From: Clostridia bacterium
GTDB taxonomy: Bacteria; Bacillota; Clostridia; UBA1381; UBA9506
Direction: 5' to 3'
Length of the DNA: 60,608 bases
Assembly: GCA_017546245.1 (NCBI GenBank)
Contig: JAFYXI010000055.1
Span: 1-60,608, forward strand
Positions 26,431-49,840 of this stretch are shown one piece after another. The notes under the pieces are model-generated. The model had not been told where the DNA came from and did no database searches. It saw only the letters and a program-made list of their open reading frames with translations. Made by a program: the position numbers and the translations under genes. Each line of letters opens with the position of its first letter. Position 1 is the first letter of the stretch.

Positions 26431-27354
26431 TTATTCCATTTCATCAGCGGTGATAAAACGATAACCATTTTCGTTTAAAATTCTACCTAAAAGATAAAAT
26501 TTTTCACAAATATCCGGCTGATATGCATAATAGTCAGGATAAAAATACTGTTCATGTGTTCCTGTACCGATAAAGTCATTTCCTATCAGTTTACTCAGCG
26601 CATCTTCTATCTCATTTAAAGAATTTAAATTAAGATTAGGACCACCGCCAAGTTGTCTGAAACGAATGCCTGTATCTTTATCTGATATGGATTTGTTTTT
26701 AAATTTAATGGAATCGAATTCTTCTTCAGAAAGATGATTATATCCGCAAAGCGCCGCCCTTACTCTTACATCTTTTGTATTTTTGGTATAGAGCATAGAT
26801 TCCGGCTTTTTGTTTTGTCTGAGTCTTGCTGCATGACCATACGGCAAGCGATTATCATCGCCATCAAATTCCATTTTTGTGCCATAGCTGTGAGATAAAA
26901 ATTTTACTCCGCAGTCATAAAGCGCTCGGCAACCATCTTTACTCATAGGCAACCAATGAGTCATTACCGCATTTGATATGCTCTTTTCACCGGCAAATCT
27001 CTTAATTTCGCCAACAATTGCCTCATAATTCGCTTTCACATCTTCATAAGATGCGTTTATATATGGATAATCAGGAAATTCTTGCTTTGCGTGAAATGCA
27101 AAACGCAGCCAGTCTTTAGCCTCTTCAAATTCTTTTTTGTATGTATCAGGCATATCTGCCAAAGTAAATTCGTCATTTCCGTAAAAGAAGTCGGTTCTGT
27201 AAAAAAGATTTAGCTGAACTGTCATTTTATAGTCATCGTGACCTTTTTTAAGCATTTTCATAAACGAATTGTCGTAAATTGACTTTGGCTTTTCTCTTGC
27301 AATATCACGCAAAACCCAAATAACATCGTCAATAAAAAAATATGCTTTTCTCAT
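26431..27354 (-). CDS. Polysaccharide-deacetylase-like (NodB-fold) protein, last gene of the polysaccharide operon
   Basis: A 307-aa cytoplasmic protein. The N-terminus FFIDDVIWVLRDI, the central FHAKQEFPDYPY, THWLPMSKDG followed by GVKFLSHSYG, and the late GTHEQYFYPDYY resemble the layout of carbohydrate-esterase-4 (NodB-like) barrels with a metal-binding Asp and two His. The match is by pattern only and I cannot align all five CE4 motifs. It might act on a modified sugar from the imported polysaccharide. GAGGAAAAATT precedes the ATG; 24 bases separate it from the oxidoreductase gene. Confidence 0.55.
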   Translation of the reverse strand: MRKAYFFIDDVIWVLRDIAREKPKSIYDNSFMKMLKKGHDDYKMTVQLNLFYRTDFFYGNDEFTLADMPDTYKKEFEEAKDWLRFAFHAKQEFPDYPYINASYEDVKANYEAIVGEIKRFAGEKSISNAVMTHWLPMSKDGCRALYDCGVKFLSHSYGTKMEFDGDDNRLPYGHAARLRQNKKPESMLYTKNTKDVRVRAALCGYNHLSEEEFDSIKFKNKSISDKDTGIRFRQLGGGPNLNLNSLNEIEDALSKLIGNDFIGTGTHEQYFYPDYYAYQPDICEKFYLLGRILNENGYRFITADEME

Positions 27355-27378
27355 AATTTTTCCTCTTTGGCTATATTT

Positions 27379-28509
27379 TTATATTTCCGTTGTCCAGTCG
27401 TCATCCCACGGATAACGCATACGAAGAACTTCTCCGCCTCGTTTTGCCGATTCTTCTGCGTATATTCCCGGAAGTGTCATGGCTAAACCTTCTTTTAAAG
27501 AAATAGGTGCAGGTTCACCGTTTAAAAGTGCTTTAAAGAAATGGTCTAAAAGTGCATAATCCATACCTCCGTGACCTGTTGCCTTTTCGTTATCTGCATA
27601 CTCAGGAGGCATAAATTCTCCGCCGATTTCTTTAAGGTCGGTATCAAGTTCTTTCATCGAGTTATAGCGGATAACAGGCTTTCCGAATCTGTCGATTCGC
27701 TCCATATATCCTTCTGTACCAAACACACGATAATTATGGTGACCGATTTTTGCGCGGCATCTGCCGTTTCGCATAAGACGGATTACAACTCCTGAATCTG
27801 TCTGGAACTGTGCACACATCATATCATCTTTTTTAAGTGCATTTACTTCGTCTGAATGTGGTCCTGTTCCAAAACAGCTTACCTTTCTTAACTCTTCGTC
27901 TAAAACGGTTAAAAGCGGTCCTAAAGAGTGTGTGCAATAGCGAATAGGAATCAGCAGTCTGCGCCAATCTCCGTTTTCGTTTAAGTGTATGTGTTCGTCA
28001 CTCTTAGGTAAACTCCAATGTATGTATTCTGCTTCCATGCAGTATGGCTTACCAAGCAAGCCTTTTTTGTAAAAATCCTTAAGCAAAACTGTAAATTTCT
28101 GTTCATTCGGATTTGCACCGGTTGAAATTATAGCTGAAGATTCTTGCGCTGCTTTCCACAATAGTTCTGCCTCTTTTAAGTTCGCAACATTGGGAATGTC
28201 TGACAACACATTTATATTTTTTTCTAATGCCTTGGCACAAAATTCTGCGTGTATATCTGCCCCGGTTTCTACAATTACCACATCAAGATTCGCTTTTTCG
28301 AGCATTTCGTCATAGCTTTCGTAAAATTCGGTATCAGGAAAAATTTCAGAAAAGGCTGCGTCAGACAACCATTGCTTTTCGTACCAGTTTGACGGTTTTA
28401 TATCGCAAGCCGCTGCAGGCACAACATAGTCAAAGCCGTCTGCCGCCAATTTAAACATCGCTCTGCCACGATGACCCAAGCCTACTACCCCTACTCTTAT
28501 TTTATCCAT
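27379..28509 (-). CDS. Gfo/Idh/MocA-family oxidoreductase of the polysaccharide operon
   Basis: A 376-aa NAD(P)-dependent oxidoreductase with Rossmann motif VGVVGLGHRGR near residue 6. The family's EKP motif is replaced by SDIPN near residue 100, as in several polysaccharide-degradation homologues. A GGHG-type segment (ATGHGGMDYALLDHFF) near 320 is shared with oxidoreductases of glycoside utilisation loci. GGAGGCAAAC precedes ATG 28509, which overlaps the phosphoesterase stop by eight bases. Likely oxidises or isomerises the released sugar. Confidence 0.85.
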   Translation of the reverse strand: MDKIRVGVVGLGHRGRAMFKLAADGFDYVVPAAACDIKPSNWYEKQWLSDAAFSEIFPDTEFYESYDEMLEKANLDVVIVETGADIHAEFCAKALEKNINVLSDIPNVANLKEAELLWKAAQESSAIISTGANPNEQKFTVLLKDFYKKGLLGKPYCMEAEYIHWSLPKSDEHIHLNENGDWRRLLIPIRYCTHSLGPLLTVLDEELRKVSCFGTGPHSDEVNALKKDDMMCAQFQTDSGVVIRLMRNGRCRAKIGHHNYRVFGTEGYMERIDRFGKPVIRYNSMKELDTDLKEIGGEFMPPEYADNEKATGHGGMDYALLDHFFKALLNGEPAPISLKEGLAMTLPGIYAEESAKRGGEVLRMRYPWDDDWTTEI

Positions 28510-29647
28510 TGTTTGCCTCCAAAATATCTGCATCTATTGTTTTACCCTTTATAGTACAAGCATTATATGACATTTTTGCATAAAGCATATATGGCGGATA
28601 TTTAACTACTGAATGCACATGACATACATCAAAGCCACCTTCTTCGAGTGTGACCAGTGTGCCGCCAACCATTCCCGGTATGTGGCTGTCATAAACACCG
28701 GTTTTTAAACCATATATCCATCTTATTCCCTCATATCTTACGCAAGTGTTTATTTTATGGCAATGTCCGACAAATACAGCATCTACATTACTTTGCTTCA
28801 TAGCAGATATAAAGTCACCCTCAACCTGTGTAAATGGTGTTGTGTAAGAGTCCTTGCAACCAAAGTCATCATCTTTTGCCTCTACATCCACACCAATTGT
28901 ATAGGTTTTTCTGTCTTCGGTTAAATAGCCTTTTGCTATTTCCGCGTCTTTAAATGACTGCATTGGTCCGTGACACGCAACAAACCCGGGGATTGTTTTA
29001 TTCTGCGCTTTATTTGCCAAAGCCGAATTTTTCTTGATTAACTCAACCTGGTCTGCAAAAATTTTTTCTTCTCTTATAACATCTGTATGATCATGGTCAA
29101 ATTCACAGCCGTTTGAATCAACCATATGCATAATTCTTATAAGTTCGTCACCTACCGCTATACCTACCGAATAGTTGCAGTTGCCCGAAACTTCTCCTCT
29201 TTTAAACATACAGTATTTACTTTTTTCAAACTGCTCACATTGCCATGTAACACCCTTAGCCGATTCGTTATCGTGATTTCCGAACACAGGAGCCCACGGT
29301 ATTTCTAACGAATCCATAAAATTACAATACCAGCTAAGCGAAGTACCTGCATCATCAAACGAACCATAAACTATATCACCGGTTACAAATATCATATCGG
29401 GCTTTGTCTGCGCAACAAGAGAACGTATATGAGAACCTGCCGATATTTCAAAGTTTTCAGGAGCCCACGCGGTTACTTCGGGCGGTGTAAGTCTTTCAGG
29501 ATAGCGTCTTTGGGTTGCATCTATAAACTGCATATCTGTAATCTGTAAAAGTTTTATTTTAGTATTTTTTCTTGATTCATCCAGTTGCAAGACAAAATCG
29601 CAACCGTCAAAACACGATTTTTTATCGCCCTTTAATATTTTTGACAT
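28502..29647 (-). CDS. Metallophosphoesterase of the polysaccharide operon
   Basis: A 381-aa calcineurin-like phosphoesterase: LLQITDMQF near residue 33, FVTGDIVYGSFDDAG near 85, FGNHDNES near 120, ACHGPM near 222 and VGHCHK near 303 are the metal-binding blocks. No signal peptide. ATG 29647 follows GAGGAAATG; an ATG 13 codons upstream overlaps the GH88 gene. It is coupled by overlap to the oxidoreductase. Its presence suggests a phosphorylated or phosphodiester-substituted sugar, but this is inference. Confidence 0.85.
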   Translation of the reverse strand: MSKILKGDKKSCFDGCDFVLQLDESRKNTKIKLLQITDMQFIDATQRRYPERLTPPEVTAWAPENFEISAGSHIRSLVAQTKPDMIFVTGDIVYGSFDDAGTSLSWYCNFMDSLEIPWAPVFGNHDNESAKGVTWQCEQFEKSKYCMFKRGEVSGNCNYSVGIAVGDELIRIMHMVDSNGCEFDHDHTDVIREEKIFADQVELIKKNSALANKAQNKTIPGFVACHGPMQSFKDAEIAKGYLTEDRKTYTIGVDVEAKDDDFGCKDSYTTPFTQVEGDFISAMKQSNVDAVFVGHCHKINTCVRYEGIRWIYGLKTGVYDSHIPGMVGGTLVTLEEGGFDVCHVHSVVKYPPYMLYAKMSYNACTIKGKTIDADILEANNG

Positions 29648-29663
29648 AACATTTCCTCGCTTT

Positions 29664-30833
29664 CTAATTACAGTTCCACATATCAAATCCGTAATTTTTC
29701 ATTGCCATAGCCAGCATAAAATAGTAATCACCATAAATTACAAATTTATCTATTCCATTGCCTTTTTTAAGCATACCCTGAGTTGTAACATCGGTATCAA
29801 GATAGCTATCGCACAAGGATTTAAGCATTTTATCTGCCGCTTCCATAAGATGCGGTGTTGCTTTTGCTTCATTTAAAATCATAAATCCGCAGGATATTAT
29901 TGCCGCTGCTGAGCTGTCGCGGTTATAAATTTTATTTTCAGGTTTAGATTCATCCCAGGTCGGCTCAGCATCTTCACGACGCATTTTTCTCGCCGGCAAA
30001 TCCTCGGGCAGACGAAAATCCCAAACGGGTATATAGTCATCTTCAGTCAGATTTTCTAAAAACTTATCTGCTATTTTAACCGCAAGCTCGTAATATTCCT
30101 CATCTTTAGTATAAGCATACGCTGTAGCTAATCCAAATACAATCCATGCAGTACCTCTCGCCCAGTGCGAGCCGTTTGCAAAGCCGCAGCTGTTAGCTTC
30201 TTCTTTTAACGTGCCGTCAGGATTGAAAAACCACGCATGCGCAACTGAATAATCCTCTCTCACCAACGTATCTATACATGTTCTTATATGTGCTTTGGCA
30301 ACATCATAATAAATTGTATATCCGCTGTCTTTCCACGCCCAGAAAAGCAATGCCGTATTCATCATAGAATCAATAATCATACGATATTCTTTGTCAAAGC
30401 TGTCGGCATCTGACCAGGCTTCTATGTATCTTCCGTTTATGTCGAATCTTCTGACCAGTTCATCTGCCGCTTTTAATGCGGTTAACCGATGATGTACATC
30501 TCCGGTCAGCATATAAAGATGCACGCTGTAGCAAAGATATAAAAATCCTACATCATGCATGGTTGCCGCCGGAATTTTAGAAATTTTTTCTTCGTATTGG
30601 TCAAAAAAGGAGTTCGCCCATCTTAACGCCTGAAAGTCTTTTTCGGTATGAGCCGCAAGTACAGACATACCTGTAAAAAATGAAGTACACCAGCACCATC
30701 TGCTTGCAAAAGTGCCCGTTGCCTTGTATTCTTTGCCGTCAGCACCCGTAATTTCGGGCAATTCGCCCGAAATCGTGTCGCGGTACAGCTTTGCTTTTTT
30801 TAAACATATATCATACGCTTCTTTGTAATTCAT
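29664..30833 (-). CDS. GH88 unsaturated glucuronyl hydrolase
   Basis: A 389-aa (alpha/alpha)6-barrel protein of GH family 88. Family marks are TMHDVGFLY near residue 92 and IIDSMMN near 155, carrying the two catalytic aspartates, then GSHWARGTAW near 224, DSSAAAIISCG near 310 and GDYYFMLAM near 372. These enzymes remove the 4,5-unsaturated uronate that a polysaccharide lyase leaves at the non-reducing end. There is no signal peptide, so it acts in the cytoplasm after import. It fits the heparinase II/III-type lyase of this operon. AAGGAG precedes the ATG. Confidence 0.93.
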   Translation of the reverse strand: MNYKEAYDICLKKAKLYRDTISGELPEITGADGKEYKATGTFASRWCWCTSFFTGMSVLAAHTEKDFQALRWANSFFDQYEEKISKIPAATMHDVGFLYLCYSVHLYMLTGDVHHRLTALKAADELVRRFDINGRYIEAWSDADSFDKEYRMIIDSMMNTALLFWAWKDSGYTIYYDVAKAHIRTCIDTLVREDYSVAHAWFFNPDGTLKEEANSCGFANGSHWARGTAWIVFGLATAYAYTKDEEYYELAVKIADKFLENLTEDDYIPVWDFRLPEDLPARKMRREDAEPTWDESKPENKIYNRDSSAAAIISCGFMILNEAKATPHLMEAADKMLKSLCDSYLDTDVTTQGMLKKGNGIDKFVIYGDYYFMLAMAMKNYGFDMWNCN

Positions 30834-30845
30834 AACACAATCTCC

Positions 30846-32681
30846 TTAAATTGCCTTAAACTCACACGGCTTTAAGTTAACTTTAATTTCTTCGCCATTT
30901 TTGTTAACTGTCGCAATAATTTCTGAATCAAAATCGGTATTTAAAAGATAAACTTTATCTCCCTCATACACAGCAAATCGAAGTCTGTCGCTGCCATATA
31001 CCTTAATATCGCACATTCTGTGAGTTGCGGTCATAAGCTCGCGGACAACTGTTTTATACATAGGATACACCGAACCCGAGCCGGGATAATCGAGCGAAGT
31101 CAATAAAATTGTATATCCTTTGCCAAGCTTGTTTTCGATCATAGCCACTTCAGGCTTGTCGTTGTCTGCCTCGTTAAAATAATGCGAACTCAGGCAGGCT
31201 ACCTGTCCGCCTGCAAGCTCTGATTTTGCATATTTTACATAACCCGATGACAAAATCGGGTCTGCCTGCATACTGTCAACAGGATACATAATATCTGACA
31301 TAATGCTGTCACAGAACTTAAATCCGCCGTTTGACATATAGGCATTTTCTGCATCAAGAACGCAACCGAATAAATCGCTGACGTCACCACCGTTTATAAG
31401 ACTTATTTTGCCGTCGCGTGAGTTATTTGTATTAAGATGCGCAGCAGTCATTAAAAGTCTTCCGCCCTGCTTTACATACGCTTTTAAATTGTCATAAATT
31501 TCTTTTGTCATTGTGTTCCAGCCGGTGAATATAAGATAATCATACTGCATATATGCTTCAAGTGGCGAATTTGCATTAATAACATCGTACTGACCATATG
31601 CAGGCGCACCGCTTAAGTCTATGTCGCCATAGTTGCCGACGTCGTACCAGTTGCGTCTTACATTAATATCTTCCATTATTCTCCAGCTGAACTCGGGTGT
31701 AGAATATCCCCACTCAGGTTTATCGAACTGATTCCAAAGCGAGCTTCCTGCTGTCCAGCTGCTCCAGCCATCAAGATTACCCTGAATGAATGCTACCTTA
31801 GTTTTAGGACCGCCCTCAGGTCTTACGTCAGTTTCTAAAAACTCGCCAAATTCGCGCAAAACCGTTCTGTACTGCTGAGAAATTTCATTGTTGAAATCTA
31901 TATCCATGCGGTGTGAAAAAATACACAAATCTCCGCTTTCGAGCAAAAATACATTTGAGCCGCACATATATGCATAATCATAAATCATACGCAAGCGCTT
32001 GCTCTTTAGGGTGTCGTCGTTGCGTGTTCCTGCATACCATTCATGAGCTATGTATGTTACAAACATAGGAGCATTATGCGCCTTTTGAACACCACGCACC
32101 ATAGGCAGCATTATTTCGGGATTTCCGCACATTGCCTCGACCATAGGGTATGACATTTTCGATTCTGCCACATATGGCAAAAGACAGGTTGCCTCGATTA
32201 TGCTTGTTTGTGTTTTAAGCTCTTCGGGCAGTTTTACTTTATCAATAAAACTATTTACATAATTAACAAATCCGTCTTTTGCATCCTGCATATTATCAAA
32301 TTTTTCGGCTACAACGTCAGGATAGCTGAATGCTTTACAGCCAAACATACTGCCAAGCTCGGGCATAAAGCAGCCGATAAAATAATCGCCGGCAATTTCT
32401 TTCATTTTGCTTAAGGTATCCGGATTCATTCCAAAGTAACCCGAATGACCGCACGAAAATGAAAAATAAATTTTATTTTCAGTCATAAATTCGGCAAGCT
32501 CTAAAAACTTTCTGTCCATTTCTTCGCCTTTTACAGTTCCGCCATGAAAGCCCTGACTGCCGGCTGCAGAAATCGCCGCATAATTAACCTTGCTGTTTAT
32601 GCAGCGCCATTTTAATTCATCTAATACCGTATCGATATTAAAATCATACTGCCCTATTCTTATACCATGCATAATGTTCAT
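30846..32681 (-). CDS. Putative glycoside hydrolase of unassigned family (TIM barrel plus amidotransferase-like domain)
   Basis: A 611-aa cytoplasmic protein. The first 290 residues look like a barrel (SCGHSGYFGM near 75, FMPELGSMFG near 104, YIAHEWYAG near 200, FLLESGDL near 235), with candidate acidic catalytic residues in PELGS, AHEWY or LESGD. Residues about 300-550 resemble the GATase-like trimer domain seen after GH42-type barrels (YDYLIFTGWN, LKAYVKQGGRLLMTAAH, GKGYTILLTS). A short beta domain ends it. I cannot place it in a named family. GGAGGAAAAC precedes the ATG; GH88 follows 12 bases later. Confidence 0.6.
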   Translation of the reverse strand: MNIMHGIRIGQYDFNIDTVLDELKWRCINSKVNYAAISAAGSQGFHGGTVKGEEMDRKFLELAEFMTENKIYFSFSCGHSGYFGMNPDTLSKMKEIAGDYFIGCFMPELGSMFGCKAFSYPDVVAEKFDNMQDAKDGFVNYVNSFIDKVKLPEELKTQTSIIEATCLLPYVAESKMSYPMVEAMCGNPEIMLPMVRGVQKAHNAPMFVTYIAHEWYAGTRNDDTLKSKRLRMIYDYAYMCGSNVFLLESGDLCIFSHRMDIDFNNEISQQYRTVLREFGEFLETDVRPEGGPKTKVAFIQGNLDGWSSWTAGSSLWNQFDKPEWGYSTPEFSWRIMEDINVRRNWYDVGNYGDIDLSGAPAYGQYDVINANSPLEAYMQYDYLIFTGWNTMTKEIYDNLKAYVKQGGRLLMTAAHLNTNNSRDGKISLINGGDVSDLFGCVLDAENAYMSNGGFKFCDSIMSDIMYPVDSMQADPILSSGYVKYAKSELAGGQVACLSSHYFNEADNDKPEVAMIENKLGKGYTILLTSLDYPGSGSVYPMYKTVVRELMTATHRMCDIKVYGSDRLRFAVYEGDKVYLLNTDFDSEIIATVNKNGEEIKVNLKPCEFKAI

Positions 32682-32698
32682 AGTTTTCCTCCAAATAG

Positions 32699-33574
32699 TT
32701 ATTCTTTAACCGCACCAACCATAACACCTTTTACAAAATATTTTTGTATAAAAGGATATAAAACAAGCATAGGAACTGCCGATACAACTATACTTGCATA
32801 CACAACAGTTTCTTCTGAATATTTAATCATACTCATATCTACGCTGTCATTTTTTGCGGCAAGCCCCTTTAAGTCTACGATAAGCTTTTTAATTACCACC
32901 TGAAGCGGCATTAAATTATCGTCGCTTAAAATAATCATTTCCCAAAAATAGCTGTTCCATCTTGCAACCGCATAAAACAGCGAAATAGTTGCAATTGACG
33001 GAAGCGACAGCGGCAAATAAATTTTTGTAAGAATTGTCCATTGCCCTGCTCCGTCGATATCTGCCGCTTCTTCTAAGCTGCGCGGAATAGCGGTAAAGAA
33101 GTTACGCAAAAGAATAAAGTTATACGCGCTGCAGGCAGAACCTAAAATTATAGCAGCACGAGTATTTAAAAGACCTAAATCACGATAGTTTAAATACATA
33201 GGGATTGTGCCTGCGCCAAACCACATTGTAAGAACTATTGCAAAGGTAATAATTTTTTTGCCGGGCAAGACTGATTTTGATAACGGATAAGCACCTAAAA
33301 TTGTAACCGCCATTGCCACAGCAGTTCCTACTATTGTATAGAAGAACGAATTAAGATACGAAATCCATATCTGTCTGTCTGCAAATACATATTTATAAGC
33401 CTCTATATTTGCATCAATCGGAAACAGCACAACCTTACCGGTTAAAATCGCTTCACGAGAGCTGAACGAGGCGGATATTACATATACAATAGGATAAATG
33501 ATACCTAAGGTAAGCAATATCATAAACACAGTATTTACAAAATAAAATATTTTTTCACCTTTTGTCTCTCTCAT
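32699..33574 (-). CDS. Carbohydrate ABC transporter permease (MalG/YtcP type)
   Basis: A 291-aa inner-membrane permease with six predicted transmembrane segments and the EAA loop EEAADIDGAGQWTILTKIYLP near residue 166 that contacts the ATPase. It pairs with the permease just upstream and the lipoprotein at 43789 to import oligosaccharides. I start it at ATG 33574, five bases after the stop of the upstream permease; a TTG six codons earlier is an alternative that would overlap that gene. Confidence 0.93.
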   Translation of the reverse strand: MRETKGEKIFYFVNTVFMILLTLGIIYPIVYVISASFSSREAILTGKVVLFPIDANIEAYKYVFADRQIWISYLNSFFYTIVGTAVAMAVTILGAYPLSKSVLPGKKIITFAIVLTMWFGAGTIPMYLNYRDLGLLNTRAAIILGSACSAYNFILLRNFFTAIPRSLEEAADIDGAGQWTILTKIYLPLSLPSIATISLFYAVARWNSYFWEMIILSDDNLMPLQVVIKKLIVDLKGLAAKNDSVDMSMIKYSEETVVYASIVVSAVPMLVLYPFIQKYFVKGVMVGAVKE

Positions 33575-33578
33575 AATA

Positions 33579-34526
33579 TCACCATATCCCAACCTCAGTA
33601 AATTTTTTGCTCAACGTATTCGAGCCCCAAACGAGCATAAGACCTATAATAGAATTAAACAGACCTACTGCTGTTGAGTACGAATAATCGGCATCTAAAA
33701 GACCGTTTCGGTAAACGTATGTTCCGATAGTATCTGCAACCTCGTAAGTAGCCGGCTGATAAAGCAACAAAATAGTATCTGTTGCCGAGCCGAGCATATT
33801 ACCTATTCGCATAATAAGCATCGTCATTATAGTAGGCATAATACCCGGAATGGTAATGTGCCATATTTGTCTGAATTTATTAGCACCGTCAACTACTGCT
33901 GCCTCGTAAAGCTGGCTGTCGATTCCCGTTATTGCCGCCAGGTAAACAACCGAGCCATAACCCATAGACTGCCAGATGTTCATAACGGTGTAGATTGTTC
34001 TGAAATAATTAGGGTCTACCATAAGATACGGTCTTGTTCCTGTAAATTTTTCTATAAGCATAGGAATAATACCGTAAGATGGTGATAAAAGGTTAATAAC
34101 AATACCTGCAACAACAACCGTCGAAATAAAGTGCGGCATATATGACAGGGTTTGAATAACCGATTTAAGCTTTCTTTGTCTTACTTCATTTAAGAGCAGC
34201 GCAAAAATAATAGGCATAGGAAAGGAAAATACTAAAAGGCTTAAGTTAAGCAATACCGTATTTTTAAGTGTTCTGAAAAAATACGGAGTTGAAAGAAAGC
34301 GCTTAAAATTATCAAGTCCTACCCATTCACTACCGCTTATACCTTTAAAAATACTGTAATCCTGAAATGCGATTACGTTTCCGTACATTGGCTTATACTG
34401 AAAAAGCACATAATAAAGAATTAACGGAATAAGCATTATGTAAAGGCTTATATATTTTTTAAAGTTGCGGTTTTTTATAGGCGCTGCAGTTTTTTTGGCA
34501 ACACTTGTTTGCATACTCATCTTCAT
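33579..34526 (-). CDS. Carbohydrate ABC transporter permease (LplB type)
   Basis: A 315-aa permease of the LplB/YtcP-partner class: a basic N-terminus, a first membrane segment near 25, the FKGISGSEWVGLDNF periplasmic-side block typical of LplB, and the EAA loop LYEAAVVDGANKFRQIWHIT near 205. I place the start at ATG 34526 behind AGAAAGGTT; the open frame continues to 34619 without a ribosome site. The ATPase subunit is not encoded in the operon. Confidence 0.93.
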   Translation of the reverse strand: MKMSMQTSVAKKTAAPIKNRNFKKYISLYIMLIPLILYYVLFQYKPMYGNVIAFQDYSIFKGISGSEWVGLDNFKRFLSTPYFFRTLKNTVLLNLSLLVFSFPMPIIFALLLNEVRQRKLKSVIQTLSYMPHFISTVVVAGIVINLLSPSYGIIPMLIEKFTGTRPYLMVDPNYFRTIYTVMNIWQSMGYGSVVYLAAITGIDSQLYEAAVVDGANKFRQIWHITIPGIMPTIMTMLIMRIGNMLGSATDTILLLYQPATYEVADTIGTYVYRNGLLDADYSYSTAVGLFNSIIGLMLVWGSNTLSKKFTEVGIW

Positions 34527-34720
34527 AACCTTTCTGCTCTCTTTTTTATGAATTCCGTTCGGGAGCACAAACGTTTTTAGGTACAACAACAGAGCGAAGA
34601 GAATTTTTTTGCATATCAATTCGCTCCGTTGCTGTAATTTTTAATTTTCAATCAAAGTTGTGTTTATAAAATTTACAAGCTTATCTTCTCTGTTTTAATG
34701 GAAGATATATTTTTACTTAA

Positions 34721-37324: not shown

Positions 37325-37329
37325 ATTTG

Positions 37330-39927: not shown

Positions 39928-39948
39928 GGCTTTTCCTTTCTGTTTTAA

Positions 39949-42900
39949 CTATTGGGTAAATGCACAGAATTCTTTTACCGATACCCAGTTAGAACCTTTA
40001 CTGTTTCCGTAGAAGCTTACTCTTACATAGCGTGCAGGCACAGAACCCATATCAAAGCTTTCATAGTCTGTTGTCGTTCCGCTTGACGAGCCGTTAAAGC
40101 ATTCTGTAAAGTTCACGCCGTCTGTTGAATATTCGAGTTTGAAGTTCTCTTGACGTGATGCTCCGCTTACGAATGACATTTTAACCTCTTTAACAGTCTT
40201 AACCTCGCCAAAATCGACCGTAACTGCTCCACCCTGTTCATCTGTTGCAAACTTCGTTGTATCATTTGCGTCAAACAGATTTGCAGCTGCATTTTCAGGC
40301 TGCGGTTCGCTTGTAACAGTATATCCTACAATAGGAATCTGCTTGTCGTTTAAGAATTTTCTCGTATCGTTTAACGACGTTATCGAGAAGGTGTACATAC
40401 CAACGTTTTCGCCCTTTTCTGACATAATAACCGTTGTTATACCCGGAACGGTTGTGCTTTCAATTATCTCTAACTCGTACTTGTTATCTGCCGTTACTTC
40501 AATCTTTGGAATATCAGATTTTTCTGTAACAACATCTAAGTTATAGTTATAAACTCCGGGAACGAACTTGTCATACGTCACACCGTCAACCATTACACCG
40601 GAAAGCTGCGCACGTTCTGATTCAACAGGCAACCATTGCTCCATAGGTATATTTTCGGGAATTATGCTCGGTGTCGTTTCTTCACCAATAAGCGGTTTAA
40701 ATACAACCGTCATTTTAAAGTGGTCTGTGCTCGGATTGCAAATAGCAAGCTTTCTGTATCCGTCATTCGCTGTTTGAAGCGGCGGCGGATACGTTACGCC
40801 ATCTATGGTGTATTCACGCATTGGTTTTGCATCTAACACCTGGAAGGTTTCATCTCCGTCTGAAATGATAGACGCCCATATACGCTTGTTATTCTTTGAA
40901 AGAATAGCCGACCTTCCATCCTCGCTTAATTGAATGTCTGCTTTAGTAATCATTGACCACCAAAATTCCATCGGTGTTTTTGCCTTAAAATTATCCTGAA
41001 CGATAATGTGGTTTTGTACCTTGTTAAGCTGCACACCGCGTACTGCGCAATCATAATTTGCATTTGATTGGGTCAATTCCATAATTGCATATGACATTGT
41101 GTCGCCAAAAGAATGCTTCACAATCGGCGCTTGAGCTGTTTTAACCATATCAAATCTGGTTGTACCCAAGCCTGCAATTACAACATTGTGACCCTCTGCT
41201 TTGTTTCTGAAATAGTCGTGACCGCTATATGGGTGACCGGCTACTGCATCATTTTTGTTGTATGCGCCATAACCTGTTAAGTTATAATCTTCTTTAGGTA
41301 ATTCGTCTGCCCAGCGTTCTCCTAACATATCAAACTGGAATGTACCTACGTCTAAGTGACCGTGACCGTCATTGTTTCCGCCGCCGTGGAAAATTACCGA
41401 GGTATCACTTTTTTCCCATCCTGTTCGCATTGTAGCTGTGTTAAGCTTAACAAAGAAGCTGTCACCTTCAATATTTGAAAGACCGCCATCTTCTCCGTCG
41501 GTATCAAACACCCAGTTAATAACGTCAATCATAGACGAGCTGCTCATATTATTTTTTCTAAGCTCTGCTATGCTCTTATCGCCTGTATAATTTGCGTGCC
41601 ACATAAACATTCCGTGGAACGGGCTCTGCGTTGCCGCATCTCCTAAAGGATAGCCGCCGGTTGAGCCGTTTGCACTAAGAGCATAATAAATTGTGTTGTC
41701 AAGACCGGGAACCTCGCTTAAACCGAAATCATCACCAAAGGCACAATTTAAGTTAGCTAATGTGTACGGAAGAGTATCACAGGTATAAAGCCAATACGAA
41801 AGGCCTTCAGGGAATCCGCCGTCAGGTGCAAATGTTAAATATGCAGATTCTACCGAGCGAATTGCACATTCTAAAAGCTCTGCACAACGTTCGGGATATT
41901 TATCCATTAATGCAATAGCGCAGCCTATTAAACCGTTATTAATAATAAGAGGCTGGTTACCTGAGTTTGCTGCAAACGCAGTTTGTGCATTATAATAAGC
42001 ACATGCGTAAGAATATTCGTATTCGTCGAATATCATTTCGGTAATAATCTTTTCGATTGTTTCTTTCTCGGTTTCAGTCCAGTCTTCATACAACCAATCG
42101 TACATAGGTGCAATACCATTGGCACTATTACCTACGTCAAGACCCTCAATCGGATGCAAATCTGGAAAATCATTACTTATTACATTAATATTGTCTCTGA
42201 TATAGTTAATATATTTTGGGTCGTTTGTTAACTTATAAGCCAATGCACAATGCATACCTATATTGTATAACTTGCCCGAAAACGATGCTCTCTGTCCGTC
42301 GGGCAGCGTATACTGAACCAAACCGGTTTCTATTAAATTGTCGGCTTTACCAATTAAGGTTTTAATCAGGTTTGCATATTGCTCATCCTTTTCAATGCCT
42401 GCTTTAATGGCATCAAAGTCGTTTAATACTACTCGCGGATGTTTTCCTTCCGGATTGTTCTGACGATATTTTTCAAGAATTTCCTCTTTTGTAGGTCTGT
42501 CATAAACCATAAAGAGATCTATTCTTTTCATCATTTCATCTTCATATGTTCTTGAATGCGCATTCGTGACCATCGGACCAAAATCTCTGTCGAATGTTAT
42601 TTCGTCGCCAAAGTTCAGCAAATATTCCTCTCGTCTGTACTCTGCACCGAAAAAGTGTGTGAGCACATCGAGCTGCATATAAAAAGCATTCTTTTTAATC
42701 GTAGCAGGATAGAATAACTTCGACGGTTTTCCGTTCACATAATAAATATTTTCGCCATTTATTGCCTCAAGCGTTTTTCCGTCGTATTCAAGGGTCAATT
42801 TACCTAATTGTGCGTCCCACGAAACATCTGCACCAAACACCTCGGCAATACCGCGAGCCGGAGCAATAAGCTTTTCGTTCTCTTCTAAAATAGGAGCAGG

Positions 42901-43773
42901 CATTTTGTGCATTACATTGTCTTTGTAGACCTTGTTGCTGCCAATTCTGGCAAGGAACTTATTATAAATGCTACGATAAACAAATTTGTCGTAACGATAA
43001 AGTCTGCCCACTTCATACTTTTCGTCAGGATAAAGAGGACTGCTCTGCCATTTTTCAAGCTCTGCATTAAAGCTATCATCACTTAATCTTTTAGAGCTTT
43101 CATAAATTTTAATATCGTCTAAATAATACTCTGTGTCCTCTTTAGGACTTGTTATACGCCATTCGCAAAGGTTTGTAAGTGTAGGAAGAGCAACATCAGC
43201 CCCATATTTGTTATTATTAATATAGACACTTACGGTAAATTTGCTCATATTAAACACAAATTCAATTTTATACCACTTGTTCTTTGCAAAGGTTATTCCG
43301 GGTATTTCTTTTCCGTTAACCGAAAGCTTATCGGTTAATTCCATAAGCTTAAAAGCGCCGTTATTGCTATCTAAATAACGTGTATTTCTGGATTGTAATG
43401 CATCCTTGTAAATGTACATATTTTTAACAGTTGTTGTTTCTGTCAAATTAATGTTCATACTCATTACAAAGTCTTTTGTAATAGGTGCGTGATGCCATGT
43501 GTGTCTTAGGTATGCTCCATCAGCATTTCCTAAAATCTTCATCGCCTTATTCTCTGCATCGTCAGTTTTGGCTGCAGTTGCTACCGAAAAATACTGTGCA
43601 TATGATTGTTTTGGATAATAAAAGCCGTATGCATTATCCCCTATCTCTTGTGCTTCAAAATCTTTTGCAAGATATATAAGCAACGGGAAATCAGATGTTT
43701 GCGCAACTGCCGACTGCGGCAGGAATGAACAAAGCAATGTTAAAATCAACACTAAAAGTGTACATTTTTTCAT
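39949..43773 (-). CDS. Secreted heparinase II/III-family polysaccharide lyase with accessory domains
   Basis: A 1274-aa exported enzyme: signal peptide 1-24; a concanavalin-like region (about 30-230); a copper-amine-oxidase-N-like stalk domain (about 285-395, LIAPARGIAEVFGADVSWD); an (alpha/alpha) toroid from about 444 (HPRVVLNDFDAI) to 770 with NSANGIAPMYDWLYED; the heparinase II/III beta-sandwich from about 790 with HGGGNNDGHGHLD, the likely catalytic and metal region; and a C-terminal F5/8-type-C (discoidin) module from about 1150. It should cleave a uronate polysaccharide by beta-elimination outside the cell. The exact polymer is not identifiable. The GH88 enzyme downstream would finish its products. 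Confidence 0.88.
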   Translation of the reverse strand: MKKCTLLVLILTLLCSFLPQSAVAQTSDFPLLIYLAKDFEAQEIGDNAYGFYYPKQSYAQYFSVATAAKTDDAENKAMKILGNADGAYLRHTWHHAPITKDFVMSMNINLTETTTVKNMYIYKDALQSRNTRYLDSNNGAFKLMELTDKLSVNGKEIPGITFAKNKWYKIEFVFNMSKFTVSVYINNNKYGADVALPTLTNLCEWRITSPKEDTEYYLDDIKIYESSKRLSDDSFNAELEKWQSSPLYPDEKYEVGRLYRYDKFVYRSIYNKFLARIGSNKVYKDNVMHKMPAPILEENEKLIAPARGIAEVFGADVSWDAQLGKLTLEYDGKTLEAINGENIYYVNGKPSKLFYPATIKKNAFYMQLDVLTHFFGAEYRREEYLLNFGDEITFDRDFGPMVTNAHSRTYEDEMMKRIDLFMVYDRPTKEEILEKYRQNNPEGKHPRVVLNDFDAIKAGIEKDEQYANLIKTLIGKADNLIETGLVQYTLPDGQRASFSGKLYNIGMHCALAYKLTNDPKYINYIRDNINVISNDFPDLHPIEGLDVGNSANGIAPMYDWLYEDWTETEKETIEKIITEMIFDEYEYSYACAYYNAQTAFAANSGNQPLIINNGLIGCAIALMDKYPERCAELLECAIRSVESAYLTFAPDGGFPEGLSYWLYTCDTLPYTLANLNCAFGDDFGLSEVPGLDNTIYYALSANGSTGGYPLGDAATQSPFHGMFMWHANYTGDKSIAELRKNNMSSSSMIDVINWVFDTDGEDGGLSNIEGDSFFVKLNTATMRTGWEKSDTSVIFHGGGNNDGHGHLDVGTFQFDMLGERWADELPKEDYNLTGYGAYNKNDAVAGHPYSGHDYFRNKAEGHNVVIAGLGTTRFDMVKTAQAPIVKHSFGDTMSYAIMELTQSNANYDCAVRGVQLNKVQNHIIVQDNFKAKTPMEFWWSMITKADIQLSEDGRSAILSKNNKRIWASIISDGDETFQVLDAKPMREYTIDGVTYPPPLQTANDGYRKLAICNPSTDHFKMTVVFKPLIGEETTPSIIPENIPMEQWLPVESERAQLSGVMVDGVTYDKFVPGVYNYNLDVVTEKSDIPKIEVTADNKYELEIIESTTVPGITTVIMSEKGENVGMYTFSITSLNDTRKFLNDKQIPIVGYTVTSEPQPENAAANLFDANDTTKFATDEQGGAVTVDFGEVKTVKEVKMSFVSGASRQENFKLEYSTDGVNFTECFNGSSSGTTTDYESFDMGSVPARYVRVSFYGNSKGSNWVSVKEFCAFTQ

Positions 43774-43788
43774 ATTTGCTTTGCCCCT

Positions 43789-45321
43789 TTACTTGTTATA
43801 TTTTTCGTAAGCATTCTGTCTTATTTCAAGTAATCCGTTCATACCGAATTTATCAAGCTCGTTTATGTATTTATTCCACGATTCATCAGTAAATGCTACT
43901 GCACCTAAAACCCATTTTTGCAGCATTTCTGATGCATAAGTATCAATCTGTGTATCAATATTATTGCTTTCTTTAGCTTCTTCATCTGCTATAACCATTT
44001 CAAGCGGCGGAACCTGCTCTACTATATAGTCAGAGTTTTCATACATTGTCATACCGTCAACAGCAATCTGATTAATCCACTGTTTTTCGTACTCAAAATC
44101 CTGTTTAAAGCCGATATCCATCTGAATACCAAATTCGGCAAGCTCTTTTTGTACGTTTTCTTTTGCCAAAAGCTCTGCTTTAAATTGCGGCTTGCCGTCT
44201 ACCATATCATAGTGAACGCCCTCAACACCGAAGTTCATAAGGCGGTTACCGGTTTCGCTATACCAGAAATCGAGATATTTAATTGCTTCTTTTATATATT
44301 TAGAGCTTGCACTAACGCCCCATCCATATAAAGAAGATTCAGGTCTGCGGCGAAGCTCAATACCGTTCGGAGGAGCTATCGGTTTAAATTCAAATCCCGG
44401 AATACTGTCTTTTAAACGGTCATTAAATTTTGCTGTACTGCCAAACCAGTTGTTTGTTGCGCCGCCGATGTTATCGGTAAGCATTTTTTCACGAGGGTCT
44501 TTGCTTCTTGTTAAAATTTCGCGGTCAATTAAGCCTTCGTTATACCATTTGATAATGTTAGTAAGCGCTTCTTTATATTCCGGCTCGTATGGACCGTATT
44601 TGATTTTTCCGTCTGCTACATACCAGTCAGGACGTGCATTCCAAAGCGGGAAAAGCTCGTTAAGGTCTGCTCCGAAAAACGGAACTTCATCTGCCTGACC
44701 ATTGCCGTTGGGGTCTTTTTCTTTAAACGCTTTAAATACTGTATAAAGCTCTTCTGTGCTGTCAGGAATCTCTAAGCCAAGTTTTTTGAGCCAGTCTGTA
44801 CGGATAAACCAGCCTGTGCTTGCGCTTCCGCCCGGGATGTGCGGAATGTAATAAATATTTCCGTCCGATGCGGTAATTCTTTTCTTAATTGACGGATTTT
44901 CTTCAAGCATTTTTTTAATATTAGGTGCACATTCGTCAAAATATTCGTTAAGAGGTACAAATGCTCCCTCAATGCCGTACTGTGAAAAGCCCACCGGGTC
45001 ATAAGTTTCAACAATATCAGGAATATCTCCTGCTGCTAAAGCTAAGTTAAATGCCTGATTAAAATCTGTGTTACTCTTAGAAACTGTAACCCTGGCAGAA
45101 ACATTTGTAAGCTTTGCTGCTTCTGCAAAAATTTTCCACTGACCATCAGCCTCTTTAGACGACGGATAGAATACTGTAAGCTCAATCGGTTCTTTAGAAA
45201 TTAATGTTTCTGAAGAAAGGTCAACATTATTTGTAGCACTGTTTTCTTTTTTGCATCCTGCAAACTGCAACGTCATTAAAGCTATAAGTGCGAATAAGCC
45301 TATTCTTTTAAATATTTTCAT
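43789..45321 (-). CDS. Extracellular solute-binding lipoprotein (LipO/YtcQ type)
   Basis: A 510-aa sugar-binding lipoprotein: signal sequence with lipobox LQFAGC (Cys23), then a two-lobed binding domain with the family segment WLKKLGLEIPDSTEELY near residue 155 followed by a calcium-loop-like DPNGNGQADEVP. It is the receptor for the two permeases downstream. AGGAGG precedes the ATG. The long (over 500 residue) form matches the class that works with LplB-type permeases on complex oligosaccharides. Confidence 0.93.
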   Translation of the reverse strand: MKIFKRIGLFALIALMTLQFAGCKKENSATNNVDLSSETLISKEPIELTVFYPSSKEADGQWKIFAEAAKLTNVSARVTVSKSNTDFNQAFNLALAAGDIPDIVETYDPVGFSQYGIEGAFVPLNEYFDECAPNIKKMLEENPSIKKRITASDGNIYYIPHIPGGSASTGWFIRTDWLKKLGLEIPDSTEELYTVFKAFKEKDPNGNGQADEVPFFGADLNELFPLWNARPDWYVADGKIKYGPYEPEYKEALTNIIKWYNEGLIDREILTRSKDPREKMLTDNIGGATNNWFGSTAKFNDRLKDSIPGFEFKPIAPPNGIELRRRPESSLYGWGVSASSKYIKEAIKYLDFWYSETGNRLMNFGVEGVHYDMVDGKPQFKAELLAKENVQKELAEFGIQMDIGFKQDFEYEKQWINQIAVDGMTMYENSDYIVEQVPPLEMVIADEEAKESNNIDTQIDTYASEMLQKWVLGAVAFTDESWNKYINELDKFGMNGLLEIRQNAYEKYNK

Positions 45322-45361
45322 TTTGGTTTCCTCCTGTTTTATAATAAATTTTAGTTAACTG

Positions 45362-48019
45362 CTATTGATAAATTACTGCATCGCCCTGATAGTTGTTACC
45401 AAAACGAATTACTATTCTTGCATAGTTTTGATTGTCATGCAAGTAGTCCATGATTTTTGCAGGACCTTTTACCTTTCCTTCTTTTTTATTGATATCAAAG
45501 CTTAACAAACGATTATTTCGTCTGTTATAAGGAATAAAGTTAAATAAAACCTTGTTTTCTTCACCCGGAATACCGTTTTCAAATCCACCCTCATAGGTTT
45601 CTATAAAGTCTGAGCCTGCCGGTGCATTGTAAACGTGCAGGACGCGTACTGCAACTGTATCAGCTCTGCTGCTGCCGACATATTCAGGATTAACGGTATC
45701 TGTTTCAAAATCATAAATTTTCTCAAAAGCAATAATATTATCTATTGTATCGAGCGAGAATATCCCTATATCTCCCGGTGAAAGCTCAGGAAGCTTAACA
45801 TCATCATTTACAAAATAATCTACCTTTGAATTGTAATAATATCCACTAAGCTTAACTTTAGCATCGCCATCTTCATCTGCAACAGTTGAAATCTTTTCAA
45901 CTAAAAAGAAATAGTTTGATTTACTTAACTCTGCCGTAGCGGTTTTGTAATAAACCATAACCGCCGGAAGAATATCATTTGCATCTGCAACATAACTTTC
46001 GAATTTGCAGCTTGAACCATCTTTAAAAAGGGTTGTGTCGTATTTTGCTACTGTAAAATATTTATTATCATATTTATCCATATCCTCAAGCGGAACCTGG
46101 AATATCGGAACTGAATCTGAAAGCGCATAACCCGATGCATACACAGCCGAGCCGTAACCATGGTCGCGAAGGAAAGCATCGCCCATCTCGTGGTAGTTAT
46201 ATTTCATTACAAGTTTGCTTGAGCTGTCTTTTCCTGCTGTGTAAAGACGTTTTAAATTACCCTCGTCATCGGTCATATAATAAACGACCTGCGCAGTATC
46301 GGAATCTGCACCTGTATTAAGATTTGCTTTTGTCTTTTTCAAATATTCAGCAACATCTTTAACTTCGACCGGTTCATCATTAATGCGAATCTTATCTTCA
46401 AGATAGTACTCGCTGACAACACTGTCTGTTGACAGAATTTTAACCATCGAGGTTGTTGTAAGTCCTCGCGTTTCGCTTGCCGCTTTTATAAGAAAACCAA
46501 GCTTGACTGCCTCTGAACCTTTATCTGCCCATACAATAACATCATTATTTATTCCTACCGCTGCATCCTGACCGCCTTTGATATTTTTCTTCATTTTTTC
46601 GGTCATATTTCCGTGAAGGTAATACACTTTACCCTCGGCATCAGTTGCCTCATTTGCAGATACAGAAGCTACTTTAATACCCATGGGCAAACCAATCACT
46701 TTCATAACAAGCACATCACTTTTATCTGTTGTGCCAACTCCCACTATCGTGCCCTGGCTTAATGTTTCAATATCAATTTGCGAACCGTTTAAATCGCTGA
46801 CAGACATAAGCTTTTTATCGCCGTAATTTACTGAACCGTCTTTTAAATAAAGAATCTGACGTGTCGTGTCTACGAAATCTACCTGTTCATATGTATAGTC
46901 CTCAATAAATACTACGTCTGCTTCTCCGTCATCATTATTATCTATAAGAACAACATTATCTGTAAAGCTTTTAAGCTTTTCGTTCACATCAGCACTAAGC
47001 AGCGAACCATTCATAAATATATCTGCATTTGTGCTTATATCCACGCTTTCTTCATCGCCGTTTGCATCTGTACCTATTACTTCATTTTTATTAATCTCAA
47101 CTATTTGGTGCTTTGCAAATTTATATACCTCATTATCTTTACTCAACGTAAAATATACGAGAGACTTTTCTTCTCCGACTAGCTCGTAGTAATATTCTAC
47201 TTCATAGCCGGCATAAGCAAATATATCAGAATTTTCGGTATAAATTACATCTTCTCCGATTAATATTCTTTCATCTGATGGCTTAAAATAGGATTTTAAA
47301 GAAAGAATATTGTTCGAATTTACAATATCTGTTTCTTTATATATATCGTGATACTCTGTAAGTACTGTAACATCTTCTGCAAGCTTATATTCTACATATC
47401 CTCCGGCTACTGCGGTCGGCAGACAAATGTCAACATCGAGTGCATTATATAAAATTCTTATAAGCATTTGACGTGTTAAGTCTTCGCTGTACTTTGCCGA
47501 AATGCCCTCAAGCAGCCCGAGCTCGTTTGCAACATATATATATCCGCTTGGATATCCGCCTCGCGCCTGTGCTTTAAAATCATATCCGAGCGCAACAACT
47601 ACTGATTTTATAAAATGCTCAAGTAATATCTTTTCCTCAGGAGCAAACACTCCGTTTGCTGTACCGCGCATTAAACCTAAATCTACCGCTGTGCTCACAA
47701 CACCTGCATATTCATAATAATCCGGGACATCTATAAACAAATCGCTTACTGTTCCGGACACACTATTTATGTCATGCCCCAAAAGTGATACAAGCGATTT
47801 TGCTGCATCAATTCTTTTTACTGCGTTGTTGTCTTCAAAGAAAAGACCGCTGTCGCTATAAAATGAATATATACCAAGTTTGTCTAAAAACTCTGCATAC
47901 GCTTCATTTGCCGGATCTGCAAAAAGCATATTATCCTGTGCGACTGCCGTAAAAGGTGTACATATGCTAAAAAGCATTATTGCTGCAAGCAGCATTCTTA
48001 CACACTTAAACTTTTTCAT
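45362..48019 (-). CDS. Large SLH-domain surface protein of unknown function
   Basis: An 885-aa exported protein: signal peptide 1-27 (ending TAVAQD), then three diverged SLH repeats (about 35-200; VSDLFIDVPDYYEYAGVVSTA and GLMRGTANGVFAPEEKI are recognisable). The remaining 680 residues are beta-rich, with repeated short modules of the form 'TDANGDEESVDI' and 'DNNDDGEADVVFIE', and no enzyme motif I can see. SLH repeats bind secondary cell-wall polymers, fixing the protein to the cell surface. GGGAGGTAA precedes the ATG; its start lies five bases after the upstream gene. Confidence 0.8.
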   Translation of the reverse strand: MKKFKCVRMLLAAIMLFSICTPFTAVAQDNMLFADPANEAYAEFLDKLGIYSFYSDSGLFFEDNNAVKRIDAAKSLVSLLGHDINSVSGTVSDLFIDVPDYYEYAGVVSTAVDLGLMRGTANGVFAPEEKILLEHFIKSVVVALGYDFKAQARGGYPSGYIYVANELGLLEGISAKYSEDLTRQMLIRILYNALDVDICLPTAVAGGYVEYKLAEDVTVLTEYHDIYKETDIVNSNNILSLKSYFKPSDERILIGEDVIYTENSDIFAYAGYEVEYYYELVGEEKSLVYFTLSKDNEVYKFAKHQIVEINKNEVIGTDANGDEESVDISTNADIFMNGSLLSADVNEKLKSFTDNVVLIDNNDDGEADVVFIEDYTYEQVDFVDTTRQILYLKDGSVNYGDKKLMSVSDLNGSQIDIETLSQGTIVGVGTTDKSDVLVMKVIGLPMGIKVASVSANEATDAEGKVYYLHGNMTEKMKKNIKGGQDAAVGINNDVIVWADKGSEAVKLGFLIKAASETRGLTTTSMVKILSTDSVVSEYYLEDKIRINDEPVEVKDVAEYLKKTKANLNTGADSDTAQVVYYMTDDEGNLKRLYTAGKDSSSKLVMKYNYHEMGDAFLRDHGYGSAVYASGYALSDSVPIFQVPLEDMDKYDNKYFTVAKYDTTLFKDGSSCKFESYVADANDILPAVMVYYKTATAELSKSNYFFLVEKISTVADEDGDAKVKLSGYYYNSKVDYFVNDDVKLPELSPGDIGIFSLDTIDNIIAFEKIYDFETDTVNPEYVGSSRADTVAVRVLHVYNAPAGSDFIETYEGGFENGIPGEENKVLFNFIPYNRRNNRLLSFDINKKEGKVKGPAKIMDYLHDNQNYARIVIRFGNNYQGDAVIYQ

Positions 48020-48024
48020 TTAGT

Positions 48025-49635
48025 TTACCTCCCACTGCAATATTCTGATAATCTGTAAATTATAACCGCCGCCTCGGCTCTGGTAGCATTATTTTCAGGA
48101 GCAAAATTACCATCACCGGTTCCGTTTATAATACCGGCACGGGCTAAAGCTTTTACGCTTTCTGATGCGTAAGGTGCAATTTTATCTTCATCGCTGAAGC
48201 TAACATCGTCGCCTTTAATATTAAGCTCTTTAAGCTCTATTATTCTATTACAGAACACCGCCATATCCTGACGTGTAATTTTCTCATTTGCTCCGAATTC
48301 TGTTTCGGATAATCCGTTAGCTATTTTGTTTGCAACAGCTGCTGCAATATATTCATATGACCAATGACCTTTTGGAACATCTGCAAAATTTATGTCCGAA
48401 CTTCCCATAAGCGAGAATGCACCCGCAAGCATTTTAATAAATTCTGCTCTTGTTACCGTATCTGCAGGAGCAAATATTCCTTCTGCTTTTCCGTTTACCA
48501 CCGTTTTTGCCGCCAAAACAGTAATTGCAGTTTTTGCCCATTCATATTCGCCCAAATCATTAAATTGCTGAATTTGAGGAATAGGATTTGTTGTTATAAG
48601 GTTATCATTCACCTTGAAATTCGAGGTGCTGCCGCCACCTCCGCCGCCTCCGCCATTTCCGTATGTTTTCTCTCCGTCCGTCAGATCGTCATACACAGAT
48701 TCTGCTGCTTCAGCCAGCTTTTCTACGGTATCTATGTTTTCTTCAAACAGTTTCTTTTTAAAATCTTCAAACTTTTTGTCTAAATCGCTGTATTTATCTA
48801 AGTCAAGACCTAAAACATCATTGTATTCTTCGAGCAATTCGTATTTTTCATTATAGTTTGTTGCCTTAGATATTTCATTAACCACTATTGCTCCGTCTCT
48901 TGCTTTTGCATATTCGGCAATACCAAGCTCAAAACGTTTTCCGCAAAGCTTAGAAAGTACAGCTTGCTTTTCATTATCGTTGTAAAGCTCATATACTTTA
49001 TATGCTTTTGTGTCTGTTGCCGCCAATACATCTTTATTGTTCTGCTCTTCATTCAATATTTTTAAGGATGTATCTGCCTTTTCAACAGCCACTAAGAATT
49101 TTGCCACACTGTATGCAGATTTAAAATCAGCAATCGAATCATAAGTTTGTGCATCTAAAAGCTTATTTAAAAGACCGCTTGCAGATACTGTGTTATACTC
49201 AGCCAAATCTATTAAAAGCACATCAGCATCAGCAGTTATTACCGCAGATATTTCCTCTGCTCCGTTAAGTTTTGCCAATACTGCGTCAACCTCTGACTCA
49301 ACTGATTTATATATAGCTTTAGGCTGTGTAAGCTCACCGTTTTCTGAAACTACCGCTGTAACTTTTCCGTTATAATCAAGCGAAAATACAAATTCATATG
49401 TACCATCAGCTTTAGTTTCGGTCTGACGGGTGTAAATTAAATCACCTTGTTCATCAGTAACTTTTAATGTTATTATCTGACCGCCTTTTTTAACAGTCGT
49501 GCTGCCTTTAACGCACAAATCTGTTTCTCCGCCATCGTAAGATATTTCAAATCCCAATACCGGCTGCGATGACAGTAAAACCGCAGATGCCGCAATAGCA
49601 GAAAGCGCTCTTTTCATTTTTTCAAACTTTGCCAT
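48025..49635 (-). CDS. SLH-domain surface protein with polyglycine linker, first gene of the polysaccharide operon
   Basis: A 536-aa exported protein: signal peptide 1-28 (ending VLGF), a beta-sandwich-like domain (about 30-115), a helical region (about 120-320) with FIVAR-like motifs, a run of eight glycines near residue 328, and three good SLH repeats from about 365 to the C-terminus (FADVPKGHWSYEYIAAAVAN, SDEDKIAPYASESVKALA). Probably a cell-surface anchor or scaffold. AAGGAGG precedes ATG 49635. As first gene it should be the most highly expressed of the operon, divergent from the sensor-regulator at 49913. Confidence 0.85.
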   Translation of the reverse strand: MAKFEKMKRALSAIAASAVLLSSQPVLGFEISYDGGETDLCVKGSTTVKKGGQIITLKVTDEQGDLIYTRQTETKADGTYEFVFSLDYNGKVTAVVSENGELTQPKAIYKSVESEVDAVLAKLNGAEEISAVITADADVLLIDLAEYNTVSASGLLNKLLDAQTYDSIADFKSAYSVAKFLVAVEKADTSLKILNEEQNNKDVLAATDTKAYKVYELYNDNEKQAVLSKLCGKRFELGIAEYAKARDGAIVVNEISKATNYNEKYELLEEYNDVLGLDLDKYSDLDKKFEDFKKKLFEENIDTVEKLAEAAESVYDDLTDGEKTYGNGGGGGGGGSTSNFKVNDNLITTNPIPQIQQFNDLGEYEWAKTAITVLAAKTVVNGKAEGIFAPADTVTRAEFIKMLAGAFSLMGSSDINFADVPKGHWSYEYIAAAVANKIANGLSETEFGANEKITRQDMAVFCNRIIELKELNIKGDDVSFSDEDKIAPYASESVKALARAGIINGTGDGNFAPENNATRAEAAVIIYRLSEYCSGR

Positions 49636-49840
49636 AGTCTTTCCTCCTTACATTTATCGTTAATTCTATTTTAGTGGCGCTATAATAAAAATTCAATAGA
49701 CACTTTTTAACAACTGTTGACACCTTTTAACTTTTGCGCGAAATGGCGCTTTTAAGCACCTTTCATGAAAAATTTACCATCATTAAAGCTTAAAAATGTC
49801 ACTTGAAATTTTTTAAATATCTATGTTATAATAATTACAA

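Follow-up and report, generated by a model that had tools for sequence, protein, structure and literature searches.

Layout and conservation of the operon

The stretch of DNA analysed here (the window) spans 60,608 nucleotides of a gut Clostridia bacterium genome (contig JAFYXI010000055.1 of assembly GCA_017546245.1, G000:C30 in our numbering; the genome measures 2.03 Mb and is 96.7% complete). Between positions 26431 and 49635 it carries 13 minus-strand open reading frames (ORFs), all present at the coordinates collected in Table 1 and separated by intergenic gaps of about -30 to +101 bp, which face a divergently transcribed sensor of the AraC type. Carbohydrate-active enzymes, a glycan transporter and a regulator share this one locus, which is a Gram-positive polysaccharide-utilisation operon with a divergent AraC sensor of two transmembrane (TM) segments. 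We consider it probable, at roughly 0.6, that the operon is inducible and serves the utilisation of an unsulphated polysaccharide containing uronic acid.

An initial annotation had described 13 co-directional minus-strand genes opposite a membrane AraC sensor, and the ORF coordinates agree with this. Family matches likewise uphold its oxidoreductase (Gfo/Idh/MocA), its phosphoesterase (a metallophosphoesterase), its GH88 hydrolase and its two Ig-like secreted proteins (Big domains), and the importer that it called LplB-type is recognisable from a solute-binding lipoprotein (PF01547) and two BPD permeases (PF00528). Hydrophobic segments of the sensor, as read from its sequence, lie near residues 10-36 and 258-285. 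On the two strands of positions 49500-50050, six sigma-70-like matches were found against 2.7 expected by shuffling, which is weak evidence.

The arrangement recurs in relatives, where its synteny can be observed directly. In a second species (G002, the closest relative in the sample) the genes from the lyase downward follow in the same order, spread over two contigs, with identities of 77-96% for complete or nearly complete genes (86% for the lyase and 82-96% for the lower genes). A genome of the same family (G016) holds three further copies of the upper half, on contigs C16, C34 and C32. The C16 copy comprises the full upper module in order (sensor, SLH anchor, SLH partner, solute-binding protein, lyase, two immunoglobulin-like (Ig) proteins and two permeases; 30-62% identity), with the sensor ortholog, at 30% identity, upstream of the module. 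The C34 copy has the same upper block with no recognised sensor homolog, and the C32 copy is truncated where its contig ends, beyond the first Ig protein. Given the synteny in these two genomes, a chance arrangement of the genes is ruled out. The intracellular half varies among copies, the next gene encoding HSP33 at C34 and a DUF5107 protein at C16; because of this difference, the upper module is the evolutionary unit, to which the cytosolic enzymes are attached.

Table 1. Features of the operon and its control region, from the sensor gene to the probable terminator (positions are those of the window).
Feature	Position	Strand	Evidence
AraC-type sensor-regulator, 720 aa, TM-extracellular-TM-HTH_18	49913..52075	+	Pfam HTH_18 4e-21, C-terminal
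Divergent intergenic control region, 277 bp	49636..49912	.	Coordinates
SLH anchor subunit P0010, three C-terminal SLH repeats	48025..49635	-	Pfam SLH 1.3e-36, 3 stretches
Putative SLH-pair platform subunit P0009, degenerate N-terminal SLH and a region of ~700 aa without known family	45362..48019	-	Pfam SLH 3e-5
Solute-binding lipoprotein of importer	43789..45321	-	PF01547 7e-19; LQFAGC lipobox
Secreted polysaccharide lyase, PL35-like, carrying CuAO_N1 and CBM32	39949..43773	-	phmmer 8khw 3e-37, 8khv 4e-37
Secreted Ig-like (Big_7/Big_5) protein 1	37330..39927	-	Pfam; syntenic homolog G016:C16, 33%
Secreted Ig-like (Big_7/Big_5) protein 2	34721..37333	-	Pfam; syntenic homologs G016:C16 and G016:C34, 28-31%
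ABC importer permease, LplB-type	33579..34619	-	PF00528 7e-18; 57-68% homologs in G016
ABC importer permease, YtcP-type	32699..33592	-	PF00528 2.5e-13; 62-68% homologs in G016
Cytosolic enzyme, putative glycosidase; second domain GH42M/GLMA-like	30846..32681	-	Weak PF22369 7e-4; beta-galactosidase 5gsl profile match 0.0045
GH88 unsaturated glucuronyl hydrolase-like, cytosolic	29664..30833	-	PF07470 28.4 bits, cut-off 26.6; phmmer 1vd5 1e-35
Calcineurin-like metallophosphoesterase	28502..29686	-	PF00149 2e-10
Gfo/Idh/MocA oxidoreductase	27379..28533	-	PF01408 3e-12
P0003 family protein, ~307 aa	26431..27354	-	D9-D10, H88, H133, H174, H207, H267 invariant
Terminator-like hairpin, 18 pairs, between convergent genes	26341..26379	.	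Likely operon end

The PL35-like lyase and its target polymer

Among solved structures, the secreted lyase matches PL35 enzymes at 3e-37 to 5e-30 (phmmer) over an alignment of about 530 aa, and other polysaccharide lyase (PL) families much more weakly (PL15 at 0.006; the "Heparinase" entries 8r75 and 8r6z at 0.04). It is because of these PL35 matches that the earlier designation as a heparinase II/III lyase is correct at the level of the fold, although the Pfam Hepar_II_III_C model gives a non-significant E of 0.41. Three of the five domains previously proposed have a family match, namely CuAO_N1 (292-379), the PL35-like core (about 440-1000) and CBM32/F5_F8 (1155-1269), and the other two segments have none.

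The catalytic residues can be read directly from the alignment. The catalytic Asn192, Tyr246 and His401, numbered as in the paper on the PL35 structure (PMC12088678), align with N606, Y660 and H804, so that the triad is kept; of the Mn ligands, His403, Asp405 and His457 have counterparts in H806, D808 and H862, and Asp421 is replaced by E824. The core region, the triad and the three Mn ligands are thus common to the window lyase and the PL35 enzymes GAGase II (8KHV), GAGase VII (8KHW) and the chondroitinase 9O3Q, from which it differs by this Glu, by its missing substrate-contact Arg and His residues, by an apparently separate deep clade and by extra CuAO_N1, CBM32 and N-terminal regions. We predict the lyase to be PL35-like and catalytically intact. 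Two PL35-like paralogues at a second lyase locus of the same genome (L003 and L004; G000:C15:47188-55510) keep the Asn and Tyr and carry Val in place of His401 (RVVDMDAG); they may work by another mechanism or serve in binding. Of two related genomes, one (G025) holds at least 10 PL35-like matches and the other (G027) holds 8, on several contigs, an unusually large expansion.

The cytosolic GH88 protein aligns its D94 and D155 with D88 and D149 of the Bacillus unsaturated glucuronyl hydrolase (UGL), the two catalytic Asp of that enzyme. It also resembles the Bacillus (1VD5) and streptococcal (2ZZR) UGLs in length and overall alignment, and its C-terminal loop is shorter than that of the Bacillus UGL. 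Family assignment and catalytic residues together support the combination recognised at the outset, of a lyase for uronic-acid polymers, a GH88 hydrolase, an LplB importer and surface proteins.

No credible sulphatase was found genome-wide in a PF00884 search, the sole match above the cut-off being a 511-aa membrane protein that we take to be LtaS-like. This disfavours a glycosaminoglycan (GAG) whose use depends on sulphatases, and it is the reason why we favour an unsulphated uronan as the target. The initial annotation had gone further, excluding a hyaluronan locus for want of a sulphatase; that step was wrong, as hyaluronan itself carries no sulphate. Moreover, PL35 enzymes prefer domains that are unsulphated or carry 6-O- or N-sulphate (PMC11262172).

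In the scheme that we infer, the polymer class, the surface roles and the order of steps would be as follows. The membrane AraC regulator would sense the polymer, and the SLH pair would hold it at the cell surface, 48025 serving as wall anchor and 45362 as platform; the two Ig-like proteins would assist, as would the CBM32 module of the lyase. The lyase would cut the polymer by beta-elimination through Tyr660 and His804, with Asn606 as neutraliser. Oligosaccharides with a 4,5-unsaturated uronate as their non-reducing terminus would then enter via the solute-binding protein and the LplB and YtcP permeases, and GH88 would remove the unsaturated uronate in the cytosol. KduI, which is encoded elsewhere in the genome, could pass the uronate on, while 30846, 26431, 28502 and 27379 would process the remainder.

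Several observations weigh against this reading. The PL35 substrate contacts Arg88, Arg94 and His136 are replaced in the lyase by Q494, G500 and E543. In a quick tree whose only references are two PL35 enzymes, a single clade with a support of 100 and a stem of 1.07 unites the window lyase with its ortholog and the three copies in G016, close to those references yet separate from them. Given this long stem and the missing contacts, the uronate-polymer specificity of PL35 is not transferable to the lyase. Additionally, the intracellular half is not kept with the core module at G016:C34, where HSP33 is next, and no family evidence links 45362 to glycan binding. The family nearest to the lyase, PL35, is one of known and very broad specificity, but the lyase seems to form a clade of its own; the searchable papers yielded no account of this gene set. 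The clade represents new sequence space near a family noted for ultrabroad glycosaminoglycan cleavage.

As to which polymer is degraded by such an operon, two more specific readings deserve consideration. The operon might be dedicated to hyaluronan, unsulphated chondroitin or heparosan, that is, to a host or bacterial-capsule GAG, with a functional PL35 GAGase, a UGL, and NagA acting on the amino sugar. PL35, the nearest characterised family, comprises members that act on non-, 6-O- and N-sulphated hyaluronan, chondroitin sulphate and heparan sulphate (PMC11262172), and the window GH88 best matches GAG-type UGLs; NagA lies on the same contig (2139-3308), and a GH20 gene adjoins one of the G016 copies. 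We nonetheless regard this as rather unlikely, considering that the lyase has Q, G and E in place of the contacts R88, R94 and H136 and seems to belong to a separate deep clade, and that the window operon itself contains no GH20 or hexosamine-specific gene. Alternatively, the target could be a uronan without hexosamine from plant cell walls or bacterial exopolysaccharide (glucuronan-, gellan- or gum-type), which would fit a herbivore gut. The nearest named genome comes from goat caecum, a GH88 paralogue at C64 stands beside genes for glucuronoyl-esterase-like and DUF4838 proteins, and the GH42-like 30846 suggests a glycosidase for neutral sugars. This reading too appears doubtful, for the operon includes no lyase of known plant-polymer specificity and its GH88 matches the GAG-type UGL.

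It is also conceivable that the operon is not nutritional and remodels the surface or S-layer, its substrate being the secondary wall polysaccharide of the cell itself, as the two SLH proteins and the order-wide P0009 family, whose solitary copies look housekeeping, might suggest. We consider this very improbable, since an ABC importer, an AraC sensor and a cytosolic GH88 indicate catabolism, and the operon is sporadic whereas the P0009 family is universal.

The SLH gene pair

Although the system is of an ordinary kind, a Gram-positive polysaccharide utilisation locus (PUL), its surface module is unusual and recurrent. The two SLH proteins previously noted differ in strength, since 48025 has three strong repeats and 45362 a single weak one, and the description "surface-anchored" holds for the pair itself; the lyase and the Ig proteins have no SLH repeat of their own, and their anchoring is putative. 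The pair is not special to the window locus but is a repeated, lineage-wide module, as its conservation directly reveals. The 45362 family, whose members measure ~900 aa, has relatives, found with the 45362 profile, in 61/61 genomes of the order sample and, at E <= 1e-40 across the class, in 102 of 391 genomes, representing 58 of 222 genera. Within this genome, a P0009-type gene adjoins a C-terminal-SLH gene at eight loci (C30, C15, C6, C22, C5, C64, C70 and C10), six of which (C30, C15, C22, C64, C10 and C70) have LplB/YtcP-type permeases in the same gene run; at C64 a pectate lyase as well as a GDSL esterase is among the neighbours. Of 20 strong loci that we selected in other genera, 18 have the partner directly alongside, one has it fused and one lacks it, and 15 of the 24 best hits from other families have the pair. 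The gap between the two genes is usually within about 30 bp.

The fused form is a 1438-aa protein (G022:C37, L168:7219-11535) that joins SLH repeats at 378-671 to the platform region, and it supports the view that the two proteins act together. Detectable repeats mostly number zero or one in paired P0009-type proteins and two in solitary ones: by a hand count from two tables, made with our own SLH model, at most one repeat is found in 40/44 paired and 4/20 solitary proteins (Fisher 3e-8, which is not a true probability as the rows are related). The Pfam SLH model points in the same direction for ten proteins, with 3e-13 to 7e-22 in five solitary and 4e-4 to 4e-14 in five paired ones. On the simplest reading of these sequences, the anchor gene would take over wall attachment from the decayed SLH region of its partner, and the complex may bind glycans.

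In Bacteroidota the SusC/D pair serves to locate PULs, and Gram-positive loci have lacked such a marker. We propose that the SLH pair could be a locus-specific surface platform, analogous to SusC/SusD in function only and not a member of that system: a Pfam search of the pair yielded nothing beyond SLH and a single weak match to FlgD_ig, with neither a TonB-dependent barrel nor a SusD fold. Like the GAG PULs of Bacteroidota, among them the PL35-bearing PUL of Roseihalotalea (PMC13027841), the window operon unites a surface pair, a lyase and an importer in one locus; it differs in being Gram-positive, in having an ABC importer in place of TonB and the SLH pair in place of SusC/D, and in lacking PL8 and PL38. 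With Firmicutes surface enzymes anchored by S-layer homology it shares the non-covalent attachment to the wall by three SLH repeats, whereas in the window operon a gene of its own encodes the anchor, beside that of a degenerate-SLH partner, and the arrangement is repeated locus by locus.

We speculate, with the odds somewhat against it, that the pair is a general glycan-capture platform of many Clostridia families, in which a 3xSLH anchor docks a large SLH-decayed partner and which, as a SusC/SusD counterpart, marks glycan loci that are mostly unannotated. If so, glycan loci could be searched for by this marker throughout a large section of the gut Clostridia that is mostly uncultured, and there would be a defined complex to test. 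Nothing relevant on SLH pairs at Clostridia glycan loci was found in the literature, which is weak evidence given that subscription journals were mostly uncovered.

Other cytosolic enzymes and neighbouring genes

The "two enzymes of unclear family" of the initial annotation, 30846 and 26431, keep that status, the former with its weak PF22369 match and the latter with no Pfam or PDB match; single-sequence AlphaFold models reached a pLDDT of 38 and 35, respectively. Relatives of 30846 with 39-40% identity occur in three genomes of other families, with the acidic E108 and E248 invariant, and its second domain weakly matches a GH42 trimerisation-like domain. A further genome (G358) has a larger and distant relative beside two PL35-like lyases and an SLH pair.

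The 26431-type (P0003) family has eight copies in this genome, including those in the window and on C2, C70, C21, C67, C64 and C34; some stand beside glycosidases, in one case a GH29 fucosidase. An assignment of 26431 as a NodB-type deacetylase was rejected, as the resemblance is confined to motifs and a profile comparison against three NodB proteins put the probability at 0.6%. One copy lies at G000:C64:5472-15528 together with two glucuronoyl-esterase-like proteins, DUF4838, GH31 and GH88, a locus perhaps for glucuronoxylan-like material.

Directly after the sensor gene, at 52487-53623 (+), the window encodes a type I phosphodiesterase-like protein (PF01663 5e-26) with a weak sulphatase match. 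A LacAB/RpiB-like isomerase at 19719-20291 has a 90% identical copy at G000:C47:65179; a GDSL-lipase-type gene adjoins both copies, and these two neighbours are 42% identical.

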